Origin: an uncultured Pelagibacteraceae bacterium
GTDB lineage: Bacteria; Pseudomonadota; Alphaproteobacteria; Pelagibacterales; Pelagibacteraceae
NCBI GenBank assembly: GCA_902524995.1
Contig: CABZFJ010000008.1
Location: forward strand, 1 to 36,464
Direction: 5' to 3'
DNA: 36,464 nucleotides
Each line of letters opens with the position of its first letter. The first letter of the stretch is position 1. Below, in pieces: positions 13,219 to 32,850 of the stretch. Below the pieces are notes generated by a model. That model worked only from the letters and a program-made list of their open reading frames with translations. It was not told where the DNA came from and did no database searches. The position numbers and the translations under genes were made by a program.

Positions 13219-13229
13219 AAAATACTAAT

Positions 13230-14387: not shown

Positions 14388-14388
14388 A

Positions 14389-15372: not shown

Positions 15373-16274
15373 TATGCTAATTTCTTTTCTGACTTTGGAA
15401 CATATACAACTTCAATTACACCACCAAGAATTATTAGAATACTTCCTAGTGTTTCTCTCCAACCAAATGGTTCATTTGTTAAAATACTAGCACTAACAAC
15501 GCCAACAATTATTTCAGCTAAAAATAAAATAGATGATAAGCCGGCTCCTAATTTACTTGGAGCCCAAAATATTATTACCCCTGTAGGAATGAAATAAAAT
15601 ATTGAAATAAGTAATAAAAAAGTGGACATTGACATAATAACCTCCACTGATGGAACTGGTCCTAAATAATCTACTAAGAATAACCCAATGGGTATACTTG
15701 CTAAACCACCATAAAAAAAGAATGTGAATATAATTGGAAAGACACCATCGGTTTTAATTATTTCCATTCTAATTAAACCAGCACCAAATAGTGCACCTCC
15801 AGCAAGAGCCAACCAATCTCCTGCATTTTGAGGTAATGGAATTATATTCTCTTGACTAAATACAATCCACAAACCTCCTAATGCTAAACCTAATGTGATT
15901 AACCTCTTCCAACCAAATTTCTTTTTTAAAAATATAATTTCAAATATTGTTGTCCAAACAGGTATCATGTAAAACATGATTAATGCTTTAACAACGTCAG
16001 TAAGAAGAAAACTAAGAGCATAACAAACAAATCCACTACCAACAAAAAAACCAGTGAGAGGAAATTCCAATCCAATAGACTTTCCTTTTATAACTCTCCA
16101 AATTGCGATTGGTGATAATATTAATATTCCAACTACCATTTGGGATATTGTTCCCCAGCCACCAGTCAAACCTCCATCTTCTAGTATTCTTTGAGGTAAC
16201 CAATAAATTCCCCACGAACCTGCAGCGATAGCTAATGCAAACGAAATTTTAAAATGATGAGGGTGTCTGGTCAT
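15372..16274 (-). CDS. DMT/EamA-family transporter
   Basis: A 300-residue, very hydrophobic protein with about ten TM segments arranged as two EamA repeats. Small motifs such as GWKRLITLGLALGGLWIV close the first repeat, and FGWRETLGSILIILGGVIEV closes the second. The tail is basic (PKSEKKLA). Members export or import amino acids and other metabolites. It is co-transcribed with an amidase (5 bp upstream) and a methyltransferase (1-bp overlap). The substrate is unknown, and it differs from the two related DMT proteins at 18926 and 32851. Confidence 0.85.
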   Translation of the reverse strand: MTRHPHHFKISFALAIAAGSWGIYWLPQRILEDGGLTGGWGTISQMVVGILILSPIAIWRVIKGKSIGLEFPLTGFFVGSGFVCYALSFLLTDVVKALIMFYMIPVWTTIFEIIFLKKKFGWKRLITLGLALGGLWIVFSQENIIPLPQNAGDWLALAGGALFGAGLIRMEIIKTDGVFPIIFTFFFYGGLASIPIGLFLVDYLGPVPSVEVIMSMSTFLLLISIFYFIPTGVIIFWAPSKLGAGLSSILFLAEIIVGVVSASILTNEPFGWRETLGSILIILGGVIEVVYVPKSEKKLA

Positions 16275-16279
16275 TATAA

Positions 16280-17686: not shown

Positions 17687-17696
17687 TGTTCCAAAC

Positions 17697-18887: not shown

Positions 18888-18925
18888 AATATTTTAAAAA
18901 CTTATACTAATTTAAACATTATTAA

Positions 18926-19858
18926 ATGAAAATTTCATCTGAAAAATCAGATATAAAAAAAACATATCTAGCTGTAGCAACTATGCTTTTAGCAATTTTG
19001 TGTATAGATCTTTATATGGTAATTATTAAATTTCTGGGTGACGAATATTCAATAATTCAATTAACTTTGTTTAGAAATATTGCTGCGATCATACCTTTGT
19101 TACTATTAATTTTATTCACAAATGAATTTTCAACAATTTTTAAAAATTTAGGAAATAAATTTCTTATATTAAGTTGTTTAAGAGGCATTTGTTTCCTTTC
19201 AATGAATGTATTTATATTTATTTCTGTTATTAATCTTCAGTTTGCAACCGCAATGACATTAACTTTTTCATCACCATTTTTCATAGTAATTTTATCAATA
19301 ATAATGTTGAACGAAAGGATTGGTATTTATAGATGGTCGGCAGTTATTATAGGTTTTGTTGGAGTATTAATGATTATGAGACCAACAAGCGAAATATTTA
19401 GTTTTTACTCAATATTTCCTATTCTTACAGCTATAGCTTGGGCTTTTACTGTAATCATTTTAAAGTTTATTCAAGGAAATCATTCGACTGCTAAAATTCA
19501 ATTATATACATTAATATTTAATGTCAGCGGTGGGATAATACTATTTTTAGTAACAACAGGTCATTTAGAAATAAAAAGTTTAAAAGATTTTATTTTAATG
19601 ACAACCACTGGTATTTTAGGTGGTACAGCAGCAATATTATTTATTTATTCTTATAGATTAATTTCAGCAAGCAAGATTGCATCGTTTGAATATCTTGGTA
19701 TACCATCATCCTTTATTCTTGGATGGGTTTTTTTTTCTGAAGCGCCATGGGGTCAACTGTTTCCAGGTGTATTAGTAATTATTTTTGCAGGTATGATTAT
19801 TATTTGGAGAGATAATGTTAAACAAAAAAAAGCTGAAGGTAATAAACAAGTTTATTGA
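18926..19858 (+). CDS. DMT/EamA-family transporter (paralogue of 32851-33798)
   Basis: A 310-residue protein with about ten TM helices and two EamA repeats. The end of the first repeat, GIYRWSAVIIGFVGVLMIM, closely parallels GIRRWSAIVVGFIGVLIVL in the protein at 32851, so the two are paralogues. It stands alone on the plus strand between the alcohol dehydrogenase operon and proV. Its last 7 bases overlap the 3' end of convergent proV. It has no Shine-Dalgarno. A metabolite exporter or importer is likely; the substrate is unknown. Confidence 0.85.
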   Translation: MKISSEKSDIKKTYLAVATMLLAILCIDLYMVIIKFLGDEYSIIQLTLFRNIAAIIPLLLLILFTNEFSTIFKNLGNKFLILSCLRGICFLSMNVFIFISVINLQFATAMTLTFSSPFFIVILSIIMLNERIGIYRWSAVIIGFVGVLMIMRPTSEIFSFYSIFPILTAIAWAFTVIILKFIQGNHSTAKIQLYTLIFNVSGGIILFLVTTGHLEIKSLKDFILMTTTGILGGTAAILFIYSYRLISASKIASFEYLGIPSSFILGWVFFSEAPWGQLFPGVLVIIFAGMIIIWRDNVKQKKAEGNKQVY

Positions 19859-20898
19859 TTAGATCTCATAGATTTCATCACTATTACTCTATCTATTTCT
19901 CCTAACAACTCTCCAGTTTCATTACAAACAACTGGATAAATTTTATCATTATCAATTAGTTTATCTATTAAATTTTCAATTTTAGAATTATCTAAAATAT
20001 TATCTTTTCCATCATTAAATAAATTTTTTGTTTCATTACAGCATTCTGTTCTCATAACTTTTCCTGCACTTAACACTTTATATTTTGGAACATCTTCACA
20101 AAAATCTTTCACGTATTGATCTTTTGGATTAGAGACAATTTCCTCTGGAGTGCCAACTTGAGACACTTCTCCATCTTTCATAATTGCAATATGATCTCCC
20201 ATTTTAATAGCTTCCAAAAAATCATGAGTGATAAATACCATGGTTTTTTGAAGTTTTTCTTGGATCTTTAAAAGTTCATCTTGCATTTCTCTTCTGATTA
20301 AAGGGTCAAGAGCGGAAAAAGGTTCATCAAAAATTAATATTTCAGGATCTACAGCTAGCGCTCTTGCCAAACCAACTCTTTGCTGCATACCGCCAGAGAG
20401 TTCTCTTGGATAATTATTGTGCCAACCATCTAAACCAACCATCTTTAGAACTTCCATTGATTTTTCTACTCTAACATCTTTTTTTGTTCCTCTTACCTCT
20501 AAACCATATCCAATATTTTCTAAAACTGTTCTATGAGGGAATAAACCAAAATGTTGAAATACCATGCTCATTTTATTCCTTCTGAGTTCCAATAAATCTC
20601 TTGCACTCATTTTGGTTACTTCAACTTCATCCATTTTGACAGTTCCAGCTGTTGGCTCAATCAGTCTTGAAATACATCTTACTAATGTAGATTTTCCACT
20701 ACCAGACAATCCCATTACAACAAATGTTTCACCTTTTTGGATTGAGAAGCTGACATCTTTAACTGCAACAACATGGCCTGTCTTTTCTTGGACTTCCTTT
20801 ATAGTTAAACTTTTATCAAGGTTTTTAATAATTCTTTTTTCGTCTGGTCCAAATAATTTCCATATATTTGTGCAAGTGATTTTTTGTTCTGTAGCCAT
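19852..20898 (-). CDS. proV: Glycine betaine/proline-type ABC transporter ATPase ProV
   Basis: A 348-residue ATPase. It opens with ITCTNIWKLFG, the start typical of ProV/OpuAA, and has Walker A GLSGSGKST (63-71), signature LSGGMQQR (167-174) and Walker B EILIFDEP (about 186-193). A long N-terminal loop before Walker A, as in ProV, includes a QEKTGHVVAVKDVSF segment. Residues from about 280 form a short C-terminal region with one CBS-like half (YPVVCNETGELLGEIDRV). In ProV this part senses ionic state. Unusually it is divergent from its permease gene, with a 77-bp shared gap. It should energise the ProW-ProX system for betaine-like solutes. Confidence 0.92.
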   Translation of the reverse strand: MATEQKITCTNIWKLFGPDEKRIIKNLDKSLTIKEVQEKTGHVVAVKDVSFSIQKGETFVVMGLSGSGKSTLVRCISRLIEPTAGTVKMDEVEVTKMSARDLLELRRNKMSMVFQHFGLFPHRTVLENIGYGLEVRGTKKDVRVEKSMEVLKMVGLDGWHNNYPRELSGGMQQRVGLARALAVDPEILIFDEPFSALDPLIRREMQDELLKIQEKLQKTMVFITHDFLEAIKMGDHIAIMKDGEVSQVGTPEEIVSNPKDQYVKDFCEDVPKYKVLSAGKVMRTECCNETKNLFNDGKDNILDNSKIENLIDKLIDNDKIYPVVCNETGELLGEIDRVIVMKSMRSNQ

Positions 20899-20925
20899 TT
20901 TTAATAAATAATATTACCTTAAAAA

Positions 20926-20954
20926 TAGACAATATTTTACTTTAAATGTAAAAT
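20926..20954 (+). promoter_or_regulatory. Candidate promoter for proW
   Basis: TAGACA (20926-20931), a 17-base spacer and TAAAAT (20949-20954) lie 21 bases before the proW ATG, in the divergent proV-proW gap. The -10 hexamer is the same as in the candidate proX promoter. The region is AT-rich, so confidence is moderate. Confidence 0.4.
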
Positions 20955-20975
20955 TATTTATTTTAACTTGCAATT

Positions 20976-23090
20976 ATGGCTACTAGATCTGACTTAATTG
21001 ATAAATCTAATCAATCAAAAAACATATTATCATATGTAATCATTGGAGTTGTTTTTTTAGTAGCATTATGGCTATCTACCCAAAGTGAGGGCCCTTCAAA
21101 ATTTCCAAAAGAGGTCACAGATAAATTTACTTTTACAGCTTGGGTAAATGATGGCGAAGATTACTTAAAAAAAAATTATAGATGGGTAACTAAACTTATA
21201 GCAAGTTATATTAAAGAAACTTATTATTTTGTTGAAGACTTTTTATTAGAGTCTTCTTGGATTTTAATCGCAGCTATAATTATAATTCCCTGTATAATCG
21301 CAGGAGGCTTACGTCTAGGAATATATTCTTCGTTTGTAGTTTATTTTTGGGGAGTTACAGGAATGTGGGAGCCTTCCTTGCAAACTGTAGCATTAATGGG
21401 TTTATCGGTTTTATTATGTGTGTTTTTTGGTTTTATATTGGGAGTATTGTGCTCACAAAGTAATAGATTTGAAAATTTTATGAAGCCAGTCTTAGATACG
21501 ATGCAAGTAATGCCAGCATTTGTTTATTTGTTTCCTGCATTATTTTTTTTTGGGATAGGAGGTGCGCCAGCTATCTTGGCTACAATGATATATGCAATGC
21601 CTCCAATAATAAGATTAACAAATACAGGTATAAGACAAGTACCTGCACAAACAATTGAGTCGGCTACATCATTTGGTTCTAGTAAACTTCAACTATTATT
21701 TAAAATTAAAATTCCATTATCTTTGCCAAGTATAATGATGGGGATTAATCAAGTAATAATGATGGCATTGGCTTTAGTAGTTCTTGCATGTTTTATTGGT
21801 GCTGAGGGTATTGGTGGGCAGGTTTGGCAAGCCATAAGAAGACTGGACGTTGGATGGGCAATGGAAGGTGGGCTATGTATTTTATTTATGGCGATAATGT
21901 TTGATAGATTTAGTTTAGCTTTTAGTAAAACAGAAAGGACATTACCATCTGATGTTCAAAGATTTTATTTACTTCCCCAAAGTTGGGAAAAATATCAAAT
22001 TGCAAAAATAATTGAAATGCCATTAAATTTTGGAAATAAGATTTTAAAAATTATATGCCAACTTGTTACAACTATTATAGCATCTTTATTCAAACTTTTA
22101 GTATCAGTTTTTAATAAATCTACTGCAGACAACATTGGTGAGTTCATTAGTAAGAGATATTATGTAATTCCATATTTTCTAATTTTATTATTTATAGCTT
22201 TTCTGGATCATTACTTCTTAGAAATTGGAACATTCCCAAAAGAATGGAAATTATCAATAAGGCAACCAATTACTAATGCGGTTGAAAGTTTGACTGTAAA
22301 CCCAGGTTTTATTTCTTTTGCAAAAGGTTTAAGAGCTTTTGTTTACTTAAATTTATTAAGACCTTTAGATGTTTTTCTCACTCAAATACCTTGGTGGTAT
22401 ACATTGGCAGTATTTGCTGCATTAGGTTATGTAACAGTTGGTATAAGATTTGCAATTATTACTGCGCTTCTTTTATTATTTATAGGTGCGTGTGGAATAT
22501 GGACACAATCAATGATAACTTTATCTTCTGTACTAGTATCTGTTGCATTATGTTTTGTGGTAGGAGTTCCACTTGGTATAATTGCATCCTACAACGAAAG
22601 ATTTAGAAATATTCAAAATGTAGTGCTTGATGCTATGCAAACACTTCCATACTTTTGTTATTTAATACCTGTATTAATGTTTTTTGGTGGTGGAACTGTC
22701 TCTGCTGTTCTTGCAACAGTTATATACTCAATTCCTCCAATAGTTAGATTAACTTCATTAGGATTAACTCAAGTATCAGGTACTTACTCTGAAGTTTCAA
22801 GATCATTTGGAGGTACTTTAATTCAAACATTAAATAAAGTTAAATTTCCACTAGCAATACCAAGTTTGGTAATAGGTTTTAATCAAACAGTAATTATGGC
22901 ATTTGCAATGCAAATTGTTACTCCATTAATTGGAGGCAAAGGTTTAGGATTAGAGGTATTTAATGGACTAGCAAGATCTGATACTGGTAGAGGTCTTGCT
23001 GCGGGGATAGGAATTGTTCTTTTGGCAATCATTATTGATAGAATTACATTAGCTTATACTAAAAAACAGAGAGAGGCTTTGGGTTTATAA
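20976..23090 (+). CDS. proW: ProW-type permease, tandem fusion of two permease units
   Basis: A 704-residue inner-membrane permease, about twice the usual ProW length. Two complete permease modules are seen: one to about residue 320 with EAA-loop SATSFGSSKLQLLFKIKIP (from about 228), and a second from about 400 to the end with EVSRSFGGTLIQTLNKVKFP (from 606). The loops are 378 residues apart. Both halves repeat the same order, DTMQVMPAFVYLFP against DAMQTLPYFCYLIP, and IGAEGIGGQVW against IGGKGLGLEVF, so this is a duplication and fusion. The fused protein could replace the ProW homodimer by one chain with two different halves. A middle linker of about 80 residues contains amphipathic and TM segments. 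Divergent from proV and 90 bp upstream of proX. Confidence 0.92.
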   Translation: MATRSDLIDKSNQSKNILSYVIIGVVFLVALWLSTQSEGPSKFPKEVTDKFTFTAWVNDGEDYLKKNYRWVTKLIASYIKETYYFVEDFLLESSWILIAAIIIIPCIIAGGLRLGIYSSFVVYFWGVTGMWEPSLQTVALMGLSVLLCVFFGFILGVLCSQSNRFENFMKPVLDTMQVMPAFVYLFPALFFFGIGGAPAILATMIYAMPPIIRLTNTGIRQVPAQTIESATSFGSSKLQLLFKIKIPLSLPSIMMGINQVIMMALALVVLACFIGAEGIGGQVWQAIRRLDVGWAMEGGLCILFMAIMFDRFSLAFSKTERTLPSDVQRFYLLPQSWEKYQIAKIIEMPLNFGNKILKIICQLVTTIIASLFKLLVSVFNKSTADNIGEFISKRYYVIPYFLILLFIAFLDHYFLEIGTFPKEWKLSIRQPITNAVESLTVNPGFISFAKGLRAFVYLNLLRPLDVFLTQIPWWYTLAVFAALGYVTVGIRFAIITALLLLFIGACGIWTQSMITLSSVLVSVALCFVVGVPLGIIASYNERFRNIQNVVLDAMQTLPYFCYLIPVLMFFGGGTVSAVLATVIYSIPPIVRLTSLGLTQVSGTYSEVSRSFGGTLIQTLNKVKFPLAIPSLVIGFNQTVIMAFAMQIVTPLIGGKGLGLEVFNGLARSDTGRGLAAGIGIVLLAIIIDRITLAYTKKQREALGL

Positions 23091-23119
23091 ACCAATAAAA
23101 TAGTGCCGATTTGAACGGT

Positions 23120-23148
23120 TTGCATACAGTTATATTTTGTTTTAAAAT
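23120..23148 (+). promoter_or_regulatory. Candidate promoter for proX
   Basis: TTGCAT (23120-23125), a 17-base spacer and TAAAAT (23143-23148) lie 32 bases before the proX ATG, in the proW-proX gap. It would give the binding protein its own transcript. Confidence 0.45.
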
Positions 23149-23168
23149 ACATTTTTAATTAATTAAAA

Positions 23169-23174
23169 GAGAGG
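23169..23174 (+). promoter_or_regulatory. Strong Shine-Dalgarno (GAGAGG) of proX
   Basis: GAGAGG lies six bases before the ATG at 23181. With the PotD-type gene this is one of only two clear Shine-Dalgarno sites I see in the window. It fixes the start ahead of the signal peptide. Confidence 0.7.
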
Positions 23175-23180
23175 AAATAA

Positions 23181-24191
23181 ATGAAGTTATCAAAAAAAAT
23201 ATCAGCACTAATACTATCTGTGGTGTTGCTAATTGGATCTTTTGGACATGCTAATGCAGCTAAAAGACTTCATGCGGCTATTGCAGATTGGACTGGTGGG
23301 ATAATTACATGCGAAGTTGCAGTTGCAATCCTTGAAAGAGAAATGGGATATAAGGTTAAACAAACAGTATTCCCATCTGGAACAGGATTATGGGAAGCCA
23401 TTGCTGCTGGTGAATTAGATTTTGCATGCGAAAGTTGGCCAAGCTATGCTGAAGCTGACTCTGTAATGTTAAATGAAGATTTAATATACGAAGGCAAAGT
23501 TGTAGGAAGTTACAGCGGAGACGGAAGTGTAGATCTTTTAGGTACATCAGGAATAATTGGTTTATCTGATTATTGGATACCTAGATATGCAGCAGAGGAA
23601 TTTGGCATCAAAACTTGGAAAGATTTAAACAAACATAAAGCTAAATTTGCAACAATAGAGAGTGGTAAAAAAGGAAGACTTATTGGATGTCCTGTTGCAG
23701 GATGGAACTGTCATGACCAAAAAAGACTTGATCTTTTAGGCATAGATTTCCAAGCTGACGAACTTGGTACTGAGGCTGCTGCAATAGCAGAGGCTAAAGC
23801 TGCATACATGAGAAAAGAACCATTTATGTTATATCTATGGTCTCCACATTGGTTCTTTGGAGAGTTTGATATGGTTGGAGTACAACTACCTGAACATAAA
23901 GTTTGTGATCCAGATACGTTCACAGAGGCAGGAAATTGGAAAGATTGTGGAACAAAAGGATGGCCAGCAACTGGTTGGGCTAAGGATTATACAATGAATT
24001 ATGGTAATCCAGCAACTTTTGCTAGTGCTGAGCACTCAGATGCAAAAGCTTTCTTTGAAAAAATGTCTTTACAAAATATTGACCAAGCTAAGATGTTAGT
24101 GGAAGTTGATATCAAGAAAAGAGATGTAAAAGAAGTTGTTAATGAGTGGTTAGATAATAATCCAGATAAGTGGAAAAGTTGGCTTCCATAA
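23181..24191 (+). CDS. proX: Betaine-type periplasmic binding protein ProX
   Basis: A 336-residue OpuAC/ProX-family protein with a signal peptide (MKLSKK, hydrophobic core, HANA cleavage near residue 26). The mature part has ADWTGGIITCEVAVAILE, GELDFACESWPSY, PVAGWNCHDQKR and LYLWSPHWFFGEFD. These Trp- and Tyr-rich segments supply the aromatic cage that grips quaternary ammonium groups. Paired Cys may form disulfides. It is followed by a strong bidirectional terminator. Its position next to gamma-butyrobetaine and carnitine catabolism genes suggests that these, with or without glycine betaine or choline, are the ligands; that is inference. Confidence 0.9.
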   Translation: MKLSKKISALILSVVLLIGSFGHANAAKRLHAAIADWTGGIITCEVAVAILEREMGYKVKQTVFPSGTGLWEAIAAGELDFACESWPSYAEADSVMLNEDLIYEGKVVGSYSGDGSVDLLGTSGIIGLSDYWIPRYAAEEFGIKTWKDLNKHKAKFATIESGKKGRLIGCPVAGWNCHDQKRLDLLGIDFQADELGTEAAAIAEAKAAYMRKEPFMLYLWSPHWFFGEFDMVGVQLPEHKVCDPDTFTEAGNWKDCGTKGWPATGWAKDYTMNYGNPATFASAEHSDAKAFFEKMSLQNIDQAKMLVEVDIKKRDVKEVVNEWLDNNPDKWKSWLP

Positions 24192-24212
24192 TAACTTTTA
24201 AATAAATTAGTT

Positions 24213-24246
24213 AAAAAGGGCTTTGATTTTCAAAGCCCTTTTTTTT
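24213..24246. terminator. Bidirectional intrinsic terminator between proX and the gamma-butyrobetaine dioxygenase gene
   Basis: The stem gggctttg (24218-24225) pairs with caaagccc (24231-24238) around a 5-base loop. It is flanked by AAAAA on the left and a T8 run on the right, so it can end both the plus-strand proX transcript and the convergent minus-strand transcript. It slightly overlaps the stop of the minus-strand gene. Confidence 0.9.
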
Positions 24247-25369
24247 ATTTCTTAAGATAATTTAATCGACCCACAATTTCATCTCTATCCATGTAATAAC
24301 CTTGCAGGTGTCTGTGTCCAGAATTTGGATCAAACTCAGTTCTTCCGTGTAGTACTCTTCTATTGTTGAATGTATATATATCTCCTGGCCTTAGCCTAAA
24401 TTTTATTTGAAATCTATTATCGTGTAAGAGTTTTCCAAATTTATAATGAGATTTATAAACTTTATCCATTTGATCTGGATGACAGTCTAAAGCGTCCATG
24501 GTTGCAGTACTAAATCTAACATCATTATAGTCACCATCTTTTGTAAGACTTATTGCAGTTCCATAAAAGCTTCTATGAGCTTCTTGTGTGTAATCTTTAT
24601 CTCTAAACTTTAAAGGAATTTTTGTAAGCGTATCAAAAGTATCTCTGTCATTATTCTTTAAATATTCTCCGACTGCGAATGCATCTACTGCTGATGAATC
24701 ACCTCCCTTTGCTGAATTAACTAAACAATGTAAAAATTGATACCCAGGAGGATTTTCAAACCACGGTAAATCCATATGATTTTGAAGCGCATGAGCTGTA
24801 TAAGCTGAGTTATTTGGTTTTGGTATATTTATAACTTCGAAAGGTGTTTTAAAAAATGTCTCTCTAGTGTGACTAATTCTATTTAATACAGGAAACGCTG
24901 AATTTTTTTCCACTGGAGCATTATAAACTATAGCTATTCCTTTAAAGTGAAGAAGTTCTAACCATTTAATCAATCCCTCTTCGGAAGATATAATTTCATT
25001 ATGATCTATATATATACTCTCAATATTTTTTTCTAAATTGCCATCCCATAATTGGTAGGGTGATTTGTATTCTTCATTATTTTTTATAGTGTAGCAATTT
25101 TCTCTAAGCCAATTAATGTCATAATGGCTTACATGATTTCCCTCACTCCACTCTATTTCTAATTTACCATCACTATTAAGATTATATTTTTTTGGGTTTA
25201 TGTTTTCTGATACATCTAAAATATTAAACATTCGATGCCTAGAATCTTTATCGTGTGCTGTCGGGCAATTATCTCTCAGCCACATATAATTAAATTTACT
25301 TTCTTTACCGTCATCCCATATTACTTGGAGATAAGTCCCATTTTTTGAGATTTTTGAAATTGAGTGCAT
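24245..25369 (-). CDS. Gamma-butyrobetaine dioxygenase-like 2-oxoglutarate/Fe(II) oxygenase
   Basis: A 374-residue enzyme with the two-domain layout of gamma-butyrobetaine hydroxylase: an N-terminal DUF971-type domain (WLRDNCP, C35; H80) and a TauD-type oxygenase domain. The iron triad is H198, D200 (NHMDLPW) and H341 (RRVLHGRTEF), and R353 (HRHLQGYY) probably binds 2-oxoglutarate. The family reaction hydroxylates gamma-butyrobetaine to L-carnitine, cytoplasmically. The ATG at 25369 was chosen; the TTG two codons earlier is unlikely. The N-terminal zinc site looks altered, with only one Cys of the human three. The nearby L-carnitine dehydrogenase, BKACE and thioesterase genes strongly support the role. 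Trimethyllysine hydroxylase is the alternative. Confidence 0.8.
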   Translation of the reverse strand: MHSISKISKNGTYLQVIWDDGKESKFNYMWLRDNCPTAHDKDSRHRMFNILDVSENINPKKYNLNSDGKLEIEWSEGNHVSHYDINWLRENCYTIKNNEEYKSPYQLWDGNLEKNIESIYIDHNEIISSEEGLIKWLELLHFKGIAIVYNAPVEKNSAFPVLNRISHTRETFFKTPFEVINIPKPNNSAYTAHALQNHMDLPWFENPPGYQFLHCLVNSAKGGDSSAVDAFAVGEYLKNNDRDTFDTLTKIPLKFRDKDYTQEAHRSFYGTAISLTKDGDYNDVRFSTATMDALDCHPDQMDKVYKSHYKFGKLLHDNRFQIKFRLRPGDIYTFNNRRVLHGRTEFDPNSGHRHLQGYYMDRDEIVGRLNYLKK

Positions 25370-25405
25370 AATCAATATAAATATAAAATAATTTATTAAT
25401 CAATT

Positions 25406-25430
25406 CAATTATTAGTTGACTTATTAATTG
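25406..25430. promoter_or_regulatory. Imperfect 25-bp palindrome in the dioxygenase/SDR divergent promoter
   Basis: The arms CAATTA and TAATTG are exact, with inner TA/TA pairs; 9 of 12 base pairs match around position 25418. It covers a TTGACT (25415-25420) that could be a -35 for the SDR gene. It resembles a dimeric repressor site between divergent genes. AT-richness makes chance palindromes common, so confidence is low. Confidence 0.3.
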
Positions 25431-25471
25431 TTGGAAGATTTATTAGTTTGAATTATCTTTTAAAATAAAAA

Positions 25472-26257
25472 ATGAGCATAACCTTAAAAAATAAAAAACT
25501 AATCATATCCGCAGGAGGATCGGGTATTGGATGGAGTTCTGCAAAAATATTTTTAGATAAAGGTGCAACAGTATATCTTTGTGATATCAATTCCAATTTT
25601 CTTAATAAATGTAAGAAACACAAGCTCTATAATAAAAAATTATTTGTATTTCAGTGTGATGCCTCAGATGAGAACCAAGTAAAGAATTTTTTTGGCAAAG
25701 TATTAAAAAAAACAAAAAAAATTGATGCTCTTATAAATAATGTTGGAATAGCTGGGCCAACTGGAACCCTTGAAAAATTAAAAAGTAAGGATTGGGAAAA
25801 TACATTAAAGGTAAACGTTATTAGCCATTTTTATTTTTCAAAATATTCAATTCCTATGCTTAAAAAAAATAAAAGTGGAGCTATAATAAATTTATCTTCA
25901 ACAGCAGGTATATTTGGATTTCCATTAAGATCTCCTTATTGTGCAAGTAAGTGGGCAGTTATAGGCATAACTAAGACGCTGGCAATGGAACTAGGAAAAT
26001 TTAAAATTAGAGTAAACGCTATTTGTCCTGGAACAATTAAGGGAGATAGAATGGGTAGAGTGGTAAGAGATAAATCGAAGTTTTTAAATGTTTCAAAAAA
26101 ATTAATAGAAAAAGAATTTGTTTCAATGACTTCAATGAGTACCTGGGTTTATGAAGAGGATATTGGAAGGATTTGTAGTTTTTTAATTTCGAATGATGCA
26201 CCAAGGATATCTGGACAAATAATTGCTGTAGACGGCAATACTTTAAGAATGCATTAA
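25472..26257 (+). CDS. Short-chain dehydrogenase/reductase
   Basis: A 261-residue classical SDR. The cofactor loop is SAGGSGIG, a changed TGxxxGIG, followed by D38-type acid (YLCDIN) suggesting NAD(H). The motif NNVGIAGPTG, catalytic Ser in INLSSTAGIFG, and YCASK with Tyr and Lys are all present. It oxidises a secondary alcohol or the reverse. It lies alone on the plus strand between the dioxygenase and the carnitine dehydrogenase operon. A role on a hydroxylated betaine, for example the D-isomer of carnitine, is possible but only inferred from context. Confidence 0.88.
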   Translation: MSITLKNKKLIISAGGSGIGWSSAKIFLDKGATVYLCDINSNFLNKCKKHKLYNKKLFVFQCDASDENQVKNFFGKVLKKTKKIDALINNVGIAGPTGTLEKLKSKDWENTLKVNVISHFYFSKYSIPMLKKNKSGAIINLSSTAGIFGFPLRSPYCASKWAVIGITKTLAMELGKFKIRVNAICPGTIKGDRMGRVVRDKSKFLNVSKKLIEKEFVSMTSMSTWVYEEDIGRICSFLISNDAPRISGQIIAVDGNTLRMH

Positions 26258-26260
26258 TAA

Positions 26261-26671
26261 TTAAACTTTAATGTTTTTTTCGCTTATTTCCATAAATGGA
26301 AAATGAGAATCATTAAAATGTATGTTCTCTTCTTTATTTAGAAAACTGATATCGTCCAGCAAACCTGCATATAAATAATATTTTTTATACTTTTCTACAT
26401 AAGTTAAAATTGGAGCGGCACATTTCCCACAAAAATGTTTTTTGATTTTATTGCCACTACCACCTTCATGTTCATAAATTTTTAATTTTGACTTATCTAT
26501 ATCTATTGCGCCGTCTCTGAGCAGTATAATTGTCATCATTCCTCCTATTTTTTTTCTACAATCAATGCAATGACAATTGAATACTAAAGGGACCTCATCA
26601 AGCTTAACATTAAAAGTTATATCTCCACAGATACATCCACCAGTTTTATTTATAAATATTTTTTCTTTCAT
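26261..26671 (-). CDS. GFA-family (glutathione-dependent formaldehyde-activating-like) zinc protein
   Basis: A 136-residue protein with the GFA cysteine pattern: CIC (C13, C15), CHCIDC, and HFCGKCAAP, which bind zinc. The usual CG after the last pair is CA. The ATG at 26671 overlaps the stop of the carnitine dehydrogenase gene (TGATG), so translation is coupled; a TTG one codon upstream is unlikely. Family members are mostly uncharacterised despite the name. It may deal with formaldehyde released when betaine methyl groups are oxidised, but that is inference. Confidence 0.82.
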   Translation of the reverse strand: MKEKIFINKTGGCICGDITFNVKLDEVPLVFNCHCIDCRKKIGGMMTIILLRDGAIDIDKSKLKIYEHEGGSGNKIKKHFCGKCAAPILTYVEKYKKYYLYAGLLDDISFLNKEENIHFNDSHFPFMEISEKNIKV

Positions 26672-27612
26672 CAATTTCTAATTTTATTCTCATATTTTTT
26701 TCTAATTTTCAAAACATCAACTAAATATTGGTCCCTAATATTTGAAAGCATATTAATTGATTTACCTTTTGCTTGTTTTTTTGTGCCTGATATAAGCTTA
26801 CCAGATAATTTATTTGTTAACTTTGGAGCTTTTAATTTTGTCCAAGGTAATTTTAAAGCTGGACCAAATTGTTTTAACATATGTTTCATTCCCGCATTTC
26901 CTCCCGCAAGATGAAATGTTAAAAAGGTACCCATTATTGAGTATCTAAGACCTGGTCCATCTTCTATTGCACGATCTAATTCCTGTGTTGTTGCATAATT
27001 TTCGTTAATTATATGTAAACCTTCTCTCCACAATGCTTCTTGAAGTCTATCTGATAAATAACCTGGTAATTCTTTTTTAAGCATGATTGGCTTCATTGAG
27101 ATTGATTTATAATATTTGTTTGCGTCTACAAGAAACTTTTTTGTGGTTTTTTCTCCAGGAACTATTTCAACTGCTGGCAACAAGTATGCTGGGTTAAATG
27201 GATGTCCAATTATGCCCCTTTGTGGATTTTTACTCTTAGAAAAAATTTTAGAGGGTAAAAGTCCTGACGAACTAGAGGAAATAATTACATTTGATTTTAC
27301 ATATTTAGAGATTTTTTGGATTAAATCAGTTTTAACTTTATAATTCTCTAATACATTTTCTTGTACAAAATCTACATTTGAAAGAGCTTTTTCTAAAGAA
27401 TTAAAGAATTTTAAATTTTTAATTAAAATTTTTTTTCCAAAAAGTTTTTTTATACTTTTTGAGGTTCTTTTTATTTCTTTTAAAACATAATTTTTAAGAT
27501 TTTTGTTTTGATCATACGCATGAACAATTTTGTTGTGTGCTAAATTTCTAATTATCCAGCCTGTCCCTATTACACCGGTTCCAACTATTCCAACAGTTTT
27601 AATTTTTGACAT
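26671..27612 (-). CDS. lcdH: L-carnitine dehydrogenase-like 3-hydroxyacyl-CoA dehydrogenase family enzyme
   Basis: A 313-residue NAD-dependent dehydrogenase. The Rossmann loop is GIVGTGVIGTG (8-18), SSSSSGLLPS ends the cofactor domain, and H137 (GHPFNPAYLLPAVEIVPG) is the catalytic His of the family. The stretches LQEALWREGLHIINE, ATTQELDRAIEDGPGLRYS and FGPALKLPWT are those I associate with L-carnitine 3-dehydrogenase, which turns L-carnitine into 3-dehydrocarnitine. The 313-residue length fits. It overlaps the BKACE gene by one base (TAATG), so the enzyme for the next step is coupled to it. The only serious alternative is another hydroxyacyl dehydrogenase of the same subfamily. Confidence 0.85.
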   Translation of the reverse strand: MSKIKTVGIVGTGVIGTGWIIRNLAHNKIVHAYDQNKNLKNYVLKEIKRTSKSIKKLFGKKILIKNLKFFNSLEKALSNVDFVQENVLENYKVKTDLIQKISKYVKSNVIISSSSSGLLPSKIFSKSKNPQRGIIGHPFNPAYLLPAVEIVPGEKTTKKFLVDANKYYKSISMKPIMLKKELPGYLSDRLQEALWREGLHIINENYATTQELDRAIEDGPGLRYSIMGTFLTFHLAGGNAGMKHMLKQFGPALKLPWTKLKAPKLTNKLSGKLISGTKKQAKGKSINMLSNIRDQYLVDVLKIRKKYENKIRN

Positions 27613-28499
27613 TACTTGTGTTTTACAAGCTTTAATTTTTCTCTTGTTTCTGAAGGAGACATTATCTCAACGCCAAGATCTGTAACGATCCTAATTGCTT
27701 TCTCAACTAATTTAGGATTTGTTGCTAATTTACCCTTAGATAAATATAAATTATCCTCTAATCCAACTCTTGGGTTACCTCCCATTACTACAGTTTGAGC
27801 GACATATGGCATTTCATTTTTAGATATTGCAAACCCTGACCATATACCCTCTTTAGGCATTATATCTTTCATTGCTTGCATAGCTAGTGGTGTTGCAGGT
27901 GCTCCCCATGGAATGCCTAAACACATTTGAAAAAGAGGTGGATCACTTAATAATCCCTCTTTATATAATTGAGCGCCAAACCACATATTTCCCAAGTCAA
28001 AAGCTTCTATCTCAGGTTTAACTTTTATTTCTTGAAGTTTTTTTGCAGCTTTTCTTAAATCGTTAGGTGTGTTGACTGTGATAACAGAGCTATCTCCAAA
28101 ATTTAACGTACCACAATCTAGTGTGCATATTTCAGGCAGAAATTGTTCTGCATTAGCAATTCTTTCCATTACATTTGCCATGTCTGTCATTGGACCAAAG
28201 TCTAAAGGGTTCTTGCCTTGTCCGATATCTAAATCACCACCCATACCTGTTGTAAGATTAAGAATTACATCTGTTTCAGATGATCTCACTCTATCAACCA
28301 CTTCTTTATAAAGCTCAAGTCTTCTACTTGGAGTTCCATCTTCCTCTCTTACATGGATATGAGCAATTGCAGCTCCTGCTTTAGCTGATTCAATCGCAGC
28401 CTTTGCAATTTGCTCTGGAGTTTTAGGTAAATCAGGATGTTTACTTGCTGTATCACCAGATCCAGTAAGTGCACATGAGATGAAGACCTTATTATTCAT
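27612..28499 (-). CDS. BKACE-family (DUF849) beta-keto acid cleavage enzyme, probable dehydrocarnitine cleavage enzyme
   Basis: A 295-residue BKACE enzyme. The zinc ligands H47 and H49 (AHIHVRE) and E248 (GLEDNLYL) match those known in Kce. TPSRRLELYKEVVDRVR and LNLTTGMGGDL are typical. BKACEs condense a beta-keto acid with acetyl-CoA and cleave to acetoacetate plus a new CoA ester; with 3-dehydrocarnitine the product is betainyl-CoA. It is the first gene of the minus-strand operon, coupled to L-carnitine dehydrogenase, and divergent from the CitE/thioesterase operon. This context makes the dehydrocarnitine assignment likely, while the family itself covers many keto acids. Confidence 0.87.
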   Translation of the reverse strand: MNNKVFISCALTGSGDTASKHPDLPKTPEQIAKAAIESAKAGAAIAHIHVREEDGTPSRRLELYKEVVDRVRSSETDVILNLTTGMGGDLDIGQGKNPLDFGPMTDMANVMERIANAEQFLPEICTLDCGTLNFGDSSVITVNTPNDLRKAAKKLQEIKVKPEIEAFDLGNMWFGAQLYKEGLLSDPPLFQMCLGIPWGAPATPLAMQAMKDIMPKEGIWSGFAISKNEMPYVAQTVVMGGNPRVGLEDNLYLSKGKLATNPKLVEKAIRIVTDLGVEIMSPSETREKLKLVKHK

Positions 28500-28558
28500 T
28501 TTTTATTTTAAAAAAGTATATTATCATAACATCAAAAATTATAAGATATAAGAGCTAA

Positions 28559-29419
28559 ATGGAATTTGATAAAATTAGAGTAAGAAGAAGCTTCATATTT
28601 ACCCCAGGTCTACGACCAGAGATGTTTCCAAAAGCAATAGCATCAGGTGCAGATATGGTTTGTATTGAGTTAGAAGATGGAATAGCTATTAAAGATAAGG
28701 ATGAAGCAAGAAAAAAAACTATTGATGCATTAAAAAATCTTGAAATAAAAAATGATGTAGAGTTAGTAGTTAGATTTAATTGTCAAAGAACAAAGCATGG
28801 TCTTTTAGATTTAGAATCGTTCATTTCAAGTAAAATTAAAATCAAAGCAGTGATGTTGCCTAAAATTAAAACTCCTGATGAAATTAAATTTATAGACGAT
28901 CTGTTAACTGATAGTGGCTTAGATACTGATCTACATATTATAATGGAGACTAATGAAGCTCTTGAGAATATTTATGATATTGCTCATTCTAGCGAGAGAA
29001 TAGTTGCCTTATATTTTGGAGGAGAAGATATGGCTGCAGAGTTAAGGGTAAAGAATAAATTTGAAAATCTTGTGTACGCAAGATCAAGATTAGTTCATGC
29101 AGGTGCTAGTGTTGGAGTGGATGTAATAGATGTTCCATATTTGGATTTAGAAAATATGGATGGAATGAAAAGAGAGGCTCAACTTGTTAAAGACTTGGGA
29201 TTTACAGGCAAAGGGTCAATTCATCCAAAACAAATAAATATTTTAAATGAAATTTTTACTCCAAGCCAAGAAGAAATTATTAAAGCAAAAAGAATTGTAA
29301 ACCAATTCAATGAAGCAAACACCGGTTTGGTAGTAATAGATGGAAAACTAATTGAAAAACCTGTCCTACGAGAAATGCAAAGAAAAATATTGGTGGCAGA
29401 TAAAATAAGCAAAAATTAA
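28559..29419 (+). CDS. HpcH/CitE-family CoA-ester lyase
   Basis: A 286-residue TIM-barrel lyase. RRSFIFTPGLRPEMFPKA starts the family, R72 (VVRFN) binds the CoA ester, and the Mg ligands E130 (METNE) and D157 (GGEDMAAE) are present. IELEDGIA and GSIHPKQI are further family marks. It cleaves or forms malyl-, citramalyl- or methylmalyl-CoA-like esters. It is the first gene of a plus-strand operon with the betainyl-CoA-type thioesterase (2 bp apart), a dioxygenase and a GMC oxidoreductase. No step of the known carnitine route needs it, so it may handle another acyl-CoA made here. Confidence 0.87.
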   Translation: MEFDKIRVRRSFIFTPGLRPEMFPKAIASGADMVCIELEDGIAIKDKDEARKKTIDALKNLEIKNDVELVVRFNCQRTKHGLLDLESFISSKIKIKAVMLPKIKTPDEIKFIDDLLTDSGLDTDLHIIMETNEALENIYDIAHSSERIVALYFGGEDMAAELRVKNKFENLVYARSRLVHAGASVGVDVIDVPYLDLENMDGMKREAQLVKDLGFTGKGSIHPKQINILNEIFTPSQEEIIKAKRIVNQFNEANTGLVVIDGKLIEKPVLREMQRKILVADKISKN

Positions 29420-29421
29420 AA

Positions 29422-29889
29422 ATGTCAGTACATATTGATACAAGAAAAATTATTAAAGAATGGATAGATTATAATGGTCATATGAATATGGCCTATTATG
29501 TATTAATTTTTGACCAAGCTTGGGAGAATATTTTGAATAAATTCCAAATGGGTGGTGAAAAAGCTGAAGAAAGCAAAAGAACTACAATGGTTGTTGAAAC
29601 AAGAACAACCTATGACAGTGAAGTAAAAGAAGGAGATGAAGTTGATGTGTATGTTTCCTATTTTGACCATGATAAAAAAAGACTGCATTTAAAATGTGAA
29701 ATGTATGAAAAAAAAACTAAAAAGCTGTCAGCAACAATGGAAAATTTATCTCTTTATATAGATTTAGATAAAAGAAAAGTTACTGAATTTGAAGATGAAA
29801 AAGTTAAAATTATGGATGAATTTATTGATAAAAATAAAGTAGACTTTAAAATTGAAAATTTAATGTTTAAGGAAAAACTAAAAAAATAG
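29422..29889 (+). CDS. Hotdog-fold acyl-CoA thioesterase, probable betainyl-CoA thioesterase
   Basis: A 155-residue 4HBT-type hotdog thioesterase with WIDYNGHMNMAYYVLIFD near residues 14-31; D16 with NGHMN is the acidic active-site loop. Proteins with this DYNGHMN start are typical of carnitine operons (cdhB of Pseudomonas), where betainyl-CoA is split to glycine betaine and CoA. It lies 2 bp after the CitE-like gene and 1 bp before the dioxygenase gene, across a 59-bp divergent gap from the BKACE and L-carnitine dehydrogenase genes. This context supports the betainyl-CoA role. Confidence 0.8.
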   Translation: MSVHIDTRKIIKEWIDYNGHMNMAYYVLIFDQAWENILNKFQMGGEKAEESKRTTMVVETRTTYDSEVKEGDEVDVYVSYFDHDKKRLHLKCEMYEKKTKKLSATMENLSLYIDLDKRKVTEFEDEKVKIMDEFIDKNKVDFKIENLMFKEKLKK

Positions 29890-29890
29890 T

Positions 29891-30718
29891 ATGCAAGCTG
29901 AATTAATAGCAGGAGCATTAGGTGCTGAAATAAAAGGGATTAGTTTAAAAGATTCATCACCAGAAAATTGGAAACAAATAAATGAACTAATGTTAGAACA
30001 CAAAGTATTATTTTTTCGAGATCAAAATATTTCTCCAATAGAACAAATAAACTTAGCTAAAAGATTTGGACCTTTAGAAAAACATGTTTATGTAAAAGGT
30101 TTAGATGAATATCCAGAAATTCTCAGAATTAAGAAAGGTGCAAGTGAAAAACATCAGTGGGGAGAAACTTGGCATACTGATGTTAGCTATAATACTAATC
30201 CGACAAAGGTCATAATTTTAAGATCTAGAAAAATTCCACCTGTGGGTGGTGATACAATGTTTTCAAATATGCAGCTTGCGTACGAAACATTAAATGTTGA
30301 TATAAAAAAGAAAATTAATGGAAAGAAAGCAATTCATAGCTCTCTAGGTGCTTCAGCTTTTGTAGATAAATACGAAGAAATGGAGGGCAATGGAAATCTC
30401 GATGAATATTCTAATTCTCATCCAATAGTACGAACACATCCAGAAACTGGGAAAAAAATTTTATATGTAAATTCAATGTATACAAAAAAAATTATTGGAA
30501 TTGAAAAGAATGAAAGTGATGAAATATTGAAAGAAATATTTGTCCATCAAGAAAGATTAGACTTTACATGTAGATTTAAATGGACAGAAAATGCAGTAGC
30601 ACTGTGGGACAACAGATGCACATTGCATCAAGGATTGACTGATTTCTTTCCGGGAAGAGGTTTGGGTCATGAAAGGATAATGGATAGAATAGCAATCGAA
30701 GGTGAACGACCTTCATAA
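29891..30718 (+). CDS. TauD/TfdA-family 2-oxoglutarate/Fe(II) dioxygenase
   Basis: A 275-residue single-domain oxygenase. It opens GALGAEIKGISLKD and has the iron triad H95, D97 (WHTDVSY) and H246 (CTLHQGLTDF), plus R262 (HERIMDRI) for 2-oxoglutarate. It lacks the N-terminal DUF971 part of the gamma-butyrobetaine enzyme at 24245, so it is a different branch nearer to taurine or 2,4-D oxygenases. It hydroxylates a carbon next to a heteroatom, often releasing sulfite, an amine or an aldehyde. It is third in the thioesterase operon; the substrate is unknown but may be another quaternary or sulfonated compound. Confidence 0.88.
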   Translation: MQAELIAGALGAEIKGISLKDSSPENWKQINELMLEHKVLFFRDQNISPIEQINLAKRFGPLEKHVYVKGLDEYPEILRIKKGASEKHQWGETWHTDVSYNTNPTKVIILRSRKIPPVGGDTMFSNMQLAYETLNVDIKKKINGKKAIHSSLGASAFVDKYEEMEGNGNLDEYSNSHPIVRTHPETGKKILYVNSMYTKKIIGIEKNESDEILKEIFVHQERLDFTCRFKWTENAVALWDNRCTLHQGLTDFFPGRGLGHERIMDRIAIEGERPS

Positions 30719-30738: not shown

Positions 30739-32319
30739 GTGAAATTTGATTATATTATTATTGGAGCTGGCACAGCAGGATGTGTTCTCGCAAATAGATT
30801 AAGTGAAAGTGGTAAATTTAATGTTGCCTTATTTGAAGCAGGTGGTTCTAGTGATATTTGGAAAGTTAATATGCCTCTGGCAATTCTATATGCAATGCAC
30901 GATCCCAAATATAACTATAAATATTATTCAGAACCAGAGCCTTATTTGAATAATAGAAGATTATTTTGTCCAAGAGGTAAAATGTTAGGTGGATGCTCTG
31001 CTCATAATGGGATGGTTTATGTGCGAGGAAATAAAAACGACTATGAGAGATGGGCATCATTTGGTTTAAAAACATGGTCTTACGAAAATGTTTTACCTTT
31101 TTTTAAAAAAATTGAGAAATGGTCAGAGGGAGAAAATGAATTTAGAGGTGGAAAAGGGATTTTACCAATAAATCAATCCAAAAACCAAAATCCTTTATTT
31201 GGTGCTTTTATTAACGCTTCTGTTGAAGCTGGGTACAAAAAAAATAATGACATGAATGGAGAAGATCAAGAAGGATTTGGAATGTATGACATCACCATTC
31301 ATAAAGGTCAAAGGGCTAGCGCTTCTAAATATTATCTAGAACCTGCAAAAAAAAGAAAGAATTTAAAAGTTTTTACCAATTCTTTTGCTGAAAGGATTAT
31401 TTTTGAAGGAAAAAAAGCAGTTGGAATAGAGGTAAATATTAAAGATAAAGTCACAAAGGTTTACGCTAATAAAGAAGTTATTTTATGTGGGGGTTCAATC
31501 AATTCACCACAACTATTAATGTTATCGGGTGTAGGACCTGAAAAAGATTTAAAAGATAAAGGAATTAATGTTTTACACTCTTTAGAGGGAGTAGGCCAAA
31601 ATTTACAAGATCATTTAGAAACTTACATTCAGCAAGAATGTAAAACTAAAGATACTCTCTATTCTTATGTTAATAAAATAAATATGCTTAAAATTGGTAT
31701 TCAATGGTTTCTTTCAAAAAGTGGTCCATGTTCTACTTCATTTTTAGAAGCAGGTGGTTTCTGCAAATCTTCAGAAGACAAAAGCTATCCAAACATTCAA
31801 TTTCATTTTTTTCCAGCATTTGTAATTGATCATGGATTAGTTGACCCTGACAGACATGGTTATCAATTACACGCAAGTTTGAATCAACCTAAAAGCAGAG
31901 GACATATTAAATTAAATAGCTCTAATCCATATGATTACCCAAAAATTCAATTTAATTATTTAGAGGACGAATATGATTTAAAAGAAACGATCAAGTGTGT
32001 CCGTGTAGCTAGGAAGATTTTGGGTCAAGAATCAATGAAGCCTTACGCTGGAAAAGAGATAGGTCCAGGTGAAAGTGCTACTGATGATGAACAAATTACA
32101 GAGTACATTAGATCAAAAGCCGAAACAGCTTATCATCCATCCTGTACATTAAAAATGGGAACAGACAAAATGGCGGTAGTTGACGAAAAATTGAAAGTTC
32201 ATGGTTTGGAAAATTTAAGAGTTGCAGATGCTTCTGTTATGCCAGAGATTACAAGTGGTAATTTAAATGCACCAACTTTAATGATAGGTGAAAGAGCGGC
32301 CAATTTTATTCTTAATTAG
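30739..32319 (+). CDS. GMC-family FAD oxidoreductase (choline dehydrogenase-like)
   Basis: A 526-residue GMC flavoprotein. The FAD loop is IIGAGTAGCVLANRLSE at the N-terminus, GKMLGGCSAHNGMVYVRG follows, GGSINSPQLLMLSGVGP is the second signature, and H466 (AYHPSCTLKMG) is the catalytic His. The only start giving the full FAD motif is GTG at 30739. Choline dehydrogenase BetA is of this type but a little longer, and many alcohols are used by the family. It is the last gene of the operon with the CitE-like lyase, thioesterase and TauD-like oxygenase, and its end overlaps the convergent GFA gene by 8 bases. Confidence 0.9.
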   Translation: MKFDYIIIGAGTAGCVLANRLSESGKFNVALFEAGGSSDIWKVNMPLAILYAMHDPKYNYKYYSEPEPYLNNRRLFCPRGKMLGGCSAHNGMVYVRGNKNDYERWASFGLKTWSYENVLPFFKKIEKWSEGENEFRGGKGILPINQSKNQNPLFGAFINASVEAGYKKNNDMNGEDQEGFGMYDITIHKGQRASASKYYLEPAKKRKNLKVFTNSFAERIIFEGKKAVGIEVNIKDKVTKVYANKEVILCGGSINSPQLLMLSGVGPEKDLKDKGINVLHSLEGVGQNLQDHLETYIQQECKTKDTLYSYVNKINMLKIGIQWFLSKSGPCSTSFLEAGGFCKSSEDKSYPNIQFHFFPAFVIDHGLVDPDRHGYQLHASLNQPKSRGHIKLNSSNPYDYPKIQFNYLEDEYDLKETIKCVRVARKILGQESMKPYAGKEIGPGESATDDEQITEYIRSKAETAYHPSCTLKMGTDKMAVVDEKLKVHGLENLRVADASVMPEITSGNLNAPTLMIGERAANFILN

Positions 32320-32788
32320 TCTCGAGATATTTTTTATATCTATCTAAACTTTCTTTAGGCCAAGCAATTTTTGGATCGTACATCTCGTCATAGCAAATAT
32401 TTTTATCTACAATATTTATCCATGGATCTTTACTTTTAACAAATATGTGTGCTTGAGGTGGAAAATGCTCTGGATTAGATAAAGTATTTGTTCTGATACT
32501 TATCCTTTTAACAGCAAATTCATAGTCAGAATAAATGTAGACACCACACTTTTTGCAGAAGTAAATCTTGCAGCTTTTTCCACTACCTGCAATTAACTTT
32601 TTTTCTAAAAGTTCACCTTTAATATCTAATGAATTTTCAAAAATACTTGTATTAACAACAAAAGATGATCCAGTTATTTTCTTACAATCTTTACAATGAC
32701 AAGCATGTGTAAATAAAGGCTTAGATTTAATAGTATATTCAACTTCTCCACAAATACAGTTGCCAGAAATTGGTTTAAAATCTTCCAT
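32312..32788 (-). CDS. GFA-family zinc protein
   Basis: A 158-residue GFA-domain protein with the full zinc pattern: GNCICGE (C11, C13), CHCKDC and FCKKCG. ATG at 32788 is preferred; the TTG at 32800 would add four residues. It is monocistronic, convergent with the GMC gene and divergent from the DMT gene. It is a distant paralogue of the GFA protein at 26261 with a longer C-terminus ending in a Trp/Tyr/Lys-rich tail. The function of this family is mostly unproven. Confidence 0.85.
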   Translation of the reverse strand: MEDFKPISGNCICGEVEYTIKSKPLFTHACHCKDCKKITGSSFVVNTSIFENSLDIKGELLEKKLIAGSGKSCKIYFCKKCGVYIYSDYEFAVKRISIRTNTLSNPEHFPPQAHIFVKSKDPWINIVDKNICYDEMYDPKIAWPKESLDRYKKYLETN

Positions 32789-32850
32789 AGATAATTTCAA
32801 GAGTATCTTATTAATTATGAAGGTTAAAGTTTTTTTGATATAGGTGCGTT

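Follow-up and report, generated by a model that had tools for sequence, protein, structure and literature searches.

The window analysed here, 36,464 nucleotides in all, is contig 8 (CABZFJ010000008.1) of the draft genome of an uncultured Pelagibacteraceae bacterium of the SAR11 group (GCA_902524995.1; 1.12 Mb, 82% complete, about 31% G+C). It carries a gamma-butyrobetaine dioxygenase-like gene (BBOX), an L-carnitine dehydrogenase-like gene (LCDH), a BKACE, a hot-dog thioesterase and the three genes of an ABC importer (ProXWV), with further enzymes around them (Table 1). All genes named in a preliminary description of this sequence are intact open reading frames where that description had put them. 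We scanned the window proteins with NCBIfam and Pfam models and their curated cut-offs; the family matches of the pathway genes lie far beyond chance, and no regulator domain turned up among the proteins scanned. The window has no tRNA and no Rfam match at gathering score.

Table 1. Features of the window, with the family match or comparison on which each assignment is based.
Feature	Position	Strand	Basis
Aldehyde dehydrogenase	10019..11452	+	BADH model 422.1 bits, cut-off 668.6
ABC ATPase (ProV)	19852..20898	-	TIGR01186 363.2 bits, over cut-off 326.6
ABC permease (ProW), two permease units, 704 aa	20976..23090	+	TIGR03416 416.2 bits in two stretches, over cut-off 363
ABC substrate-binding protein (ProX/OpuAC), quaternary-amine type	23181..24191	+	PF04069 144.5 bits, 5.8e-42; nearest PDB TmoX 4xz6
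Terminator-like hairpin, 14 pairs, between convergent ProX and BBOX	24213..24243	+	Consensus scan only
Gamma-butyrobetaine dioxygenase-like (BBOX); proposed gamma-butyrobetaine to L-carnitine	24245..25375	-	TIGR02409; PDB TmpA and human BBOX1; cage and metal residues
SDR oxidoreductase, frequent cluster partner	25472..26257	+	PF13561 186.2 bits
GFA-domain protein of the LCDH-BKACE run	26261..26674	-	PF04828 72.8 bits
L-carnitine dehydrogenase-like (LCDH/CdhA); proposed L-carnitine to 3-dehydrocarnitine	26671..27612	-	PRK07066; adjoins BKACE
BKACE; proposed 3-dehydrocarnitine + acetyl-CoA to betainyl-CoA + acetoacetate	27612..28499	-	PF05853; tree with LCDH-linked BKACEs
CitE/RipC-like C-C lyase	28559..29419	+	RipC model 240.2 bits, cut-off 375; PDB citrate lyase-like
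Hot-dog thioesterase (CdhB-like); proposed betainyl-CoA to glycine betaine	29422..29889	+	PRK07531, C-terminal half; PDB 2hlj
Second TauD-family dioxygenase	29891..30718	+	PF02668 196.3 bits; taurine dioxygenase model 217.2 bits, cut-off 313
GMC dehydrogenase, choline dehydrogenase-like	30739..32319	+	PRK02106 745.4 bits, over cut-off 605; TIGR01810 675.4, under 732.1
Second GFA-domain gene	32312..32800		Family scan

BKACE, LCDH and the first GFA-domain gene form a tight run on the minus strand, and 59 bases from BKACE begins a plus-strand run of the CitE/RipC-like lyase, the thioesterase, the TauD-family dioxygenase and the GMC dehydrogenase. SDR and BBOX point away from each other; ProX and BBOX converge. 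The scattered, divergent arrangement pointed out in the preliminary description is borne out: the window has no single operon for these genes, in contrast to caiX-cdhCAB of Pseudomonas.

LCDH is best matched by the model of L-carnitine dehydrogenase (PRK07066; 329.3 bits, 2e-98), and the best model of another kind reaches 193.6 bits. The gene adjoins BKACE in SAR11, Pseudomonas and Burkholderia, and its nearest named relatives are records of uncultured Pelagibacteraceae (L046-L050; 96-98% identical). A query with the single protein found no close relative in viral contigs, and the carnitine dehydrogenases of plasmid records were all more distant (below 60% identity in 483 of 483). BKACE matches PF05853 with 303.4 bits (1.8e-90). 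The residues listed in the preliminary description are present in both enzymes: H137 in LCDH, and H47, H49 and E248 in BKACE, which we take to be its metal and catalytic residues. We inferred a BKACE tree by a quick method from 58 proteins, hand-picked from loci gathered mostly via LCDH, and read it as an indication of kinship with carnitine-cluster BKACEs, not as a census. The tree has a clade of 44 rows (SH-aLRT 87, under the 95 mark) that groups the window enzyme with 42 of the 44 LCDH-linked BKACEs and one of the 13 others. The two LCDH-linked rows outside it, L113 and L143, are both very divergent. Of the rows that do not adjoin LCDH, 12, mostly in-genome paralogues, are likewise excluded from the clade, and the one inside it, L075, comes from SAR11 and has LCDH farther off on the same locus. 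The window BKACE therefore groups with carnitine-cluster enzymes. The preliminary description had named placement in another BKACE branch as an outcome that would refute its proposal, and the tree does not show such a placement.

BBOX scores 307.5 bits (1.2e-91) with the carnitine dioxygenase model TIGR02409, 268.3 with the TmpA model and 199.2 with that of trimethyllysine dioxygenase (TMLD). It has the GBBH-like N domain, the TauD domain and the His-Asp-His metal site. The ligands given earlier as H198, D200 and H341 are correct when counted from an ATG two codons past the listed TTG start, from which they become H200, D202 and H343. Aligned with human BBOX1 and TmpA, the protein has an aromatic cage of F, F, Y and Y at human positions 177, 181, 194 and 366, as in Pseudomonas BBOX, where the cage is described as Phe184, Phe188 and Tyr201 with Tyr368 near by (PMC4736438); we take the roles of the metal-site and cage residues from PMC13257696 and PMC4736438.

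The thioesterase matches 4HBT_2 (3.2e-26) and also PRK07531, a model of fused LCDH-thioesterase proteins, over the model's C-terminal half (62.9 bits, positions 346-474), and the DYNGHMN motif reported earlier begins at its residue 16. Its nearest PDB structure, 2hlj, is of a protein nearly identical to the carnitine-cluster thioesterase of Pseudomonas plecoglossicida, and the window protein is 27-38% identical to the copies in Pseudomonas and Burkholderia carnitine clusters.

The association of these genes extends beyond the window. We compared 80 named loci gathered through LCDH. The 33 that are named Pelagibacter have BKACE in 26, BBOX in 24, SDR in 24, the thioesterase in 20 and GMC in 20, several of the contigs being cut short. 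Another uncultured group of Alphaproteobacteria (12 loci) has BKACE and the thioesterase in all 12, SDR and GMC in 10, and BBOX in none. The 35 other loci include a BKACE match in 32 (two at only 29% identity), the thioesterase in 25 and BBOX in four. BKACE and the thioesterase accompany LCDH at all 10 Pseudomonas loci (BBOX at three) and at all eight of Burkholderia/Paraburkholderia (BBOX at one). A single contig of G017 has LCDH, the thioesterase, SDR, ProXWV, BKACE and BBOX spread across about 24 kb. The preliminary description had suggested looking for co-occurrence among related genomes, and across the 37 congeneric genomes searched carnitine-type BKACE always comes with BBOX and LCDH always with BKACE. 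BKACE of this type is present in 15, all of which have a BBOX of at least 73% identity (Fisher p 1.7e-9); such a BBOX occurs in 16, i.e. these 15 and G034. LCDH is found in 12, all within the BKACE-bearing 15 (Fisher p 2.5e-7), and 11 of the 12 have the thioesterase.

A second SAR11 family (f2, 24 genomes) has LCDH and BBOX in the same 22 genomes and BKACE in 23. In its locus L088, where the cluster extends over positions 2866-20017, a TmpB-like gene, a TmpA-like gene, an acetoacetyl-CoA synthetase (836.3 bits) and an aldehyde dehydrogenase form one arm; the divergent arm consists of BKACE, LCDH, BBOX, DddP, a homocysteine methyltransferase-like gene and a DMGDH-like gene, with an ABC importer beyond. 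An acetoacetate ligase at this place is a close fit to the pathway, since acetoacetate is the by-product of BKACE. The genome of the window encodes an acetoacetyl-CoA synthetase as well, on another contig (830.6 bits, cut-off 639).

Taken together, and leaving the importer aside, the window probably encodes a pathway that turns gamma-butyrobetaine and carnitine into glycine betaine. We infer the catalytic steps, the identity of the substrates and the direction of flux from the observed genes, their family placement, linkage and co-occurrence. The SAR11 cell would import gamma-butyrobetaine, L-carnitine or both. BBOX, with Fe(II) and 2-oxoglutarate, would hydroxylate gamma-butyrobetaine to L-carnitine, and LCDH would oxidise this with NAD+ to 3-dehydrocarnitine. 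BKACE would then convert 3-dehydrocarnitine and acetyl-CoA to betainyl-CoA and acetoacetate. The thioesterase would release glycine betaine, and the acetoacetate could be reactivated by the synthetase encoded elsewhere in the genome. The carnitine-to-betaine enzymes of this scheme are supported by homology, by the BKACE tree, by the conserved neighbourhood, by co-occurrence and by the acetoacetate-activating enzyme of the same genome; entry from gamma-butyrobetaine through BBOX is a little less firmly supported. The preliminary description had proposed a candidate complete system with its own importer. The enzymes stand, with that reservation for BBOX, and for the importer the claim is no more than plausible.

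Several observations weigh against this route or limit the evidence for it. LCDH and BBOX score below the NCBIfam curated cut-offs (414 for the LCDH equivalog model, a value exceeded by 9 of the 289 genomes of the class, and 414.75 for BBOX), so we regard both as divergent members of their families; for the same reason we write LCDH-like, a placement that rests also on the neighbourhood. The LCDH tree (57 rows, with no true outgroup) does not split its rows by BKACE neighbourhood. Since the loci were gathered through LCDH, linkage to this gene is over-represented among them, and the co-occurrence p-values ignore shared ancestry and physical linkage. Three of the 15 BKACE-bearing genomes of the genus, which are drafts, have no LCDH at E 1e-20. 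The thioesterase step is the least sure of the pathway. Homologues of this protein occur in 15 of the 25 genomes of the genus without LCDH and are thus not confined to the pathway, and in f2 a thioesterase was found at E 1e-5 in one of the 24 genomes, as a weak match, so that this family would need a different enzyme for the step. We take CdhB to be the betainyl-CoA thioesterase. The genes named for P. aeruginosa in PMC12482172 are DhcAB, and betainyl-CoA hydrolysis is there given to a dual-function fused enzyme of Sinorhizobium meliloti.

Thioesterase homologues are also found in other contexts. Three SAR11 genomes without LCDH have one (L164, L165 and L166; 56-58% identity). That of L165 adjoins MoaC- and MoaA-like genes, and it and the copy of L166 each lie about 5 kb from a TmpA-like dioxygenase. 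In the other alphaproteobacterial group, a TmpB-like HD-domain gene adjoins the thioesterase (L073, L074, L077-L085, L091) and is 62-64% identical to the TmpB of f2.

The evidence on the importer is divided. ProX looks like a quaternary-amine binder, as predicted by its family and by the four Trp of the TmoX box that it retains (W37, W86, W175 and W220). The Glu131 with which TmoX binds the oxygen of trimethylamine N-oxide (TMAO) is replaced by Ser129, and we do not favour ProXWV as the TMAO importer TmoXWV for this reason. Within the window's genus, a ProX of at least 86% identity is found in seven of the 37 genomes, in all seven with LCDH on the same contig (p 7.7e-5), and in L055 a ProX of 78% identity directly precedes LCDH. 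It is therefore plausible from this linkage that ProXWV is the pathway's own importer. The chances are about even, however, that it belongs to an independent module serving another quaternary amine, together with an Fe-alcohol dehydrogenase, an amidase and a beta-lactamase-like gene, that this module is placed beside the carnitine genes in this lineage, and that carnitine enters by another carrier. In f2, ProX (63-68% identity) is present in 20 of the 24 genomes, plus one fragment, and two of these (G045 and G052) have no detected LCDH. Of the 18 draft genomes that have both, 16 carry the two genes on different contigs; in the other two, G040 and G050, they are separated by about 200 kb and about 15 kb. 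The Fe-alcohol dehydrogenase comes after ProXWV at all four f2 places inspected (G037, G045, G050 and G052), and the amidase and beta-lactamase-like gene follow at three of them, as in the window; the domains behind these names were checked for the window and G037. A different ABC importer stands between SDR and BBOX in nine other SAR11 loci (L057-L061, L068, L070, L160 and L161) and beyond BBOX in L086, L088 and L089 of f2; the substrate-binding proteins of these two importers are about 30% identical. Finally, the convergence of ProX and BBOX on a terminator-like hairpin points the same way, although the scan found eight hairpins in the region with 6.3 expected by shuffling, and such scans are weak evidence. 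The importer is thus of the expected quaternary-amine type and shares the contig of LCDH in the genus, but it lies apart from LCDH in f2 and its place beside BBOX is taken elsewhere by others. In L055 (4452-8482) the ProX-like gene, LCDH, an FrhB/FdhB-like gene and SDR stand in a row without BKACE.

A different account of the island would make it mainly a locus for choline and glycine betaine, with import of betaine or choline, choline oxidation by the GMC dehydrogenase and an aldehyde dehydrogenase, and a use in osmoprotection or methyl supply, the carnitine-like enzymes being secondary. A published interpretation of an Arctic SAR11 island comes near to this, its authors seeing it as serving betaine uptake and production (PMC12421898). 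It agrees with the GMC dehydrogenase, which exceeds the cut-off of a choline dehydrogenase subfamily and recurs in the Pelagibacter-named loci as counted above, and with the permease, which exceeds that of the choline permeases. It leaves unexplained the linkage and co-occurrence of BKACE, LCDH and BBOX and the acetoacetyl-CoA synthetase of the f2 cluster, and we consider it improbable as the main function. The carnitine and choline/betaine readings are nevertheless compatible and could both hold.

A different trimethylammonium substrate for BBOX (e.g. 2-trimethylaminoethylphosphonate, as for TmpA, or delta-valerobetaine), with LCDH and BKACE acting on the product of BBOX or on carnitine alone, also seems unlikely. 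In favour of this, the best single PDB match of BBOX is TmpA (172 bits, against 161 for human BBOX1), and one substrate-binding residue is lost. Human BBOX holds the carboxylate with two asparagines, Asn191 and Asn293 (PMC9296572). The window protein retains the first and has Thr at the second, a further point against the proposed entry step, and Thr, Val or Ile stands there in all 25 rows of window-type SAR11 BBOX. Four BBOX-like proteins of Pseudomonas and Burkholderia loci show the reverse pattern, Ser191 with Asn293, and that of the gammaproteobacterial locus L094 has neither asparagine. A single asparagine may be enough for the carboxylate, or the substrate may be slightly different. Against an activity like that of TmpA, the butyrobetaine model outscores the TmpA model, positions 205 and 293 are Asn in TmpA but Leu and Thr in the window protein, BBOX is linked to LCDH and BKACE, and f2 has a separate TmpA-like gene adjoining a TmpB-like gene besides this BBOX. 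We rejected the idea that this second homologue (in L086, L088 and L089, with Asp at 191) is a trimethyllysine hydroxylase completing carnitine synthesis: in L088 it scores 347.1 bits with the TmpA model, below its cut-off of 400, against 187.7 with that of TMLD, and its neighbour is TmpB-like. The window's genome does encode a TMLD-like protein (253.7 bits against a cut-off of 268.3; L168:7075-8169; G000:C1:87104-88126), at a distance of about 10 kb from its acetoacetyl-CoA synthetase.

The proposed butyrobetaine-carnitine-betaine route resembles known systems in part. The caiX-cdhCAB genes of P. aeruginosa degrade carnitine to betaine with homologues of BKACE, LCDH and the thioesterase (PMC5806209), whereas the SAR11 genes lie on both strands and stand with BBOX, SDR and GMC. 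The L-carnitine pathway of S. meliloti has the same chemistry, and the window thioesterase matches the fused domain of PRK07531, but the enzyme fused there corresponds to two separate genes here (PMC12482172). TmoX of the SAR11 strain HTCC1062 belongs to the same substrate-binding family as ProX and shares the Trp box, unlike the TMAO-binding Glu131; it is described as binding TMAO and choline, but betaine and carnitine only slightly (PMC8918994). A close counterpart is the Arctic island, published in 2025 and present in 8 of 16 isolates, which has two BBOX, an ABC importer, ADH, CDH, BKACE, thioesterase, choline dehydrogenase and DMT genes, and additionally class II aldolase, GDPD, lactoylglutathione lyase, HADH, ALDH and SMR (PMC12421898). 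Compared by gene kinds, the window differs from it in the CitE/RipC-like lyase that neighbours BKACE and in an ALDH about 9 kb from the importer. The authors put the weight on uptake of betaine and adaptation to the Arctic, and the section that deals with the island gives no explicit butyrobetaine-carnitine-betaine route (PMC12421898). Carnitine metabolism genes are also mentioned for offshore SAR11 genera (PMC12636525). The window is therefore a further instance of a published type of island, to which we add a pathway set out step by step, the evidence for it and relatives that the published study does not include.

Parts of the module occur in SAR11 records without Arctic in the title, e.g. 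MED-G42 and SAG-MED17, in which MED presumably stands for Mediterranean. We raise, tentatively and with some doubt, the possibility that the route is a widespread recombining cassette of SAR11 and neighbouring streamlined Alphaproteobacteria, with exchangeable importers and no Arctic speciality, and joined in f2 to acetoacetyl-CoA synthetase, TmpAB-like phosphonate oxygenases and a dimethylsulfoniopropionate (DMSP) lyase. Few cells in the ocean are as abundant as SAR11 bacteria, and their genomes are small; that some of them retain an entire catabolic route therefore points to a real food source. If the cassette exists as proposed, SAR11 cells, which need glycine or its precursors, would have several routes to glycine betaine, and carnitine-type compounds would be a notable marine source of carbon, nitrogen and methyl groups. 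If the pathway itself holds, carnitine and gamma-butyrobetaine belong in models of marine dissolved organic nitrogen. The idea lends itself to a direct test in the cultured Arctic isolates, some of which carry the island and some of which lack it.

Most 500-base bins between 24 and 33 kb that are covered by the five nearest relatives (L046-L050) are 88-95% identical to them. The stretch 28500-30700, with the lyase, the thioesterase and the TauD-family dioxygenase, falls to 79-83%, then to 61-63%, and is locally unmatched, and the dioxygenase was not found in these five records; the block looks like a recombined segment. Relatives 90% identical to the aldehyde dehydrogenase lie one gene from BKACE in L156, L157 and L159. 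As for the suggestion in the preliminary description that the glycine betaine would feed C1 metabolism, the genome has three proteins of the homocysteine-methyltransferase family, all far below the cut-off for betaine-homocysteine methyltransferase (65-87 bits against 338). The DMSP demethylase DmdA is encoded at 1135-2298 (530 bits, cut-off 410), beside a short thiolase open reading frame whose match ends at position 292 of the 385 in the model. Positions 3445-9902 hold ABC importer genes beside DoeA-like and EutA-like proteins (ectoine family), both below cut-off. At 33805-36462, an open frame with a subtilase domain (PF00082, 78.9 bits) runs off the end of the window.

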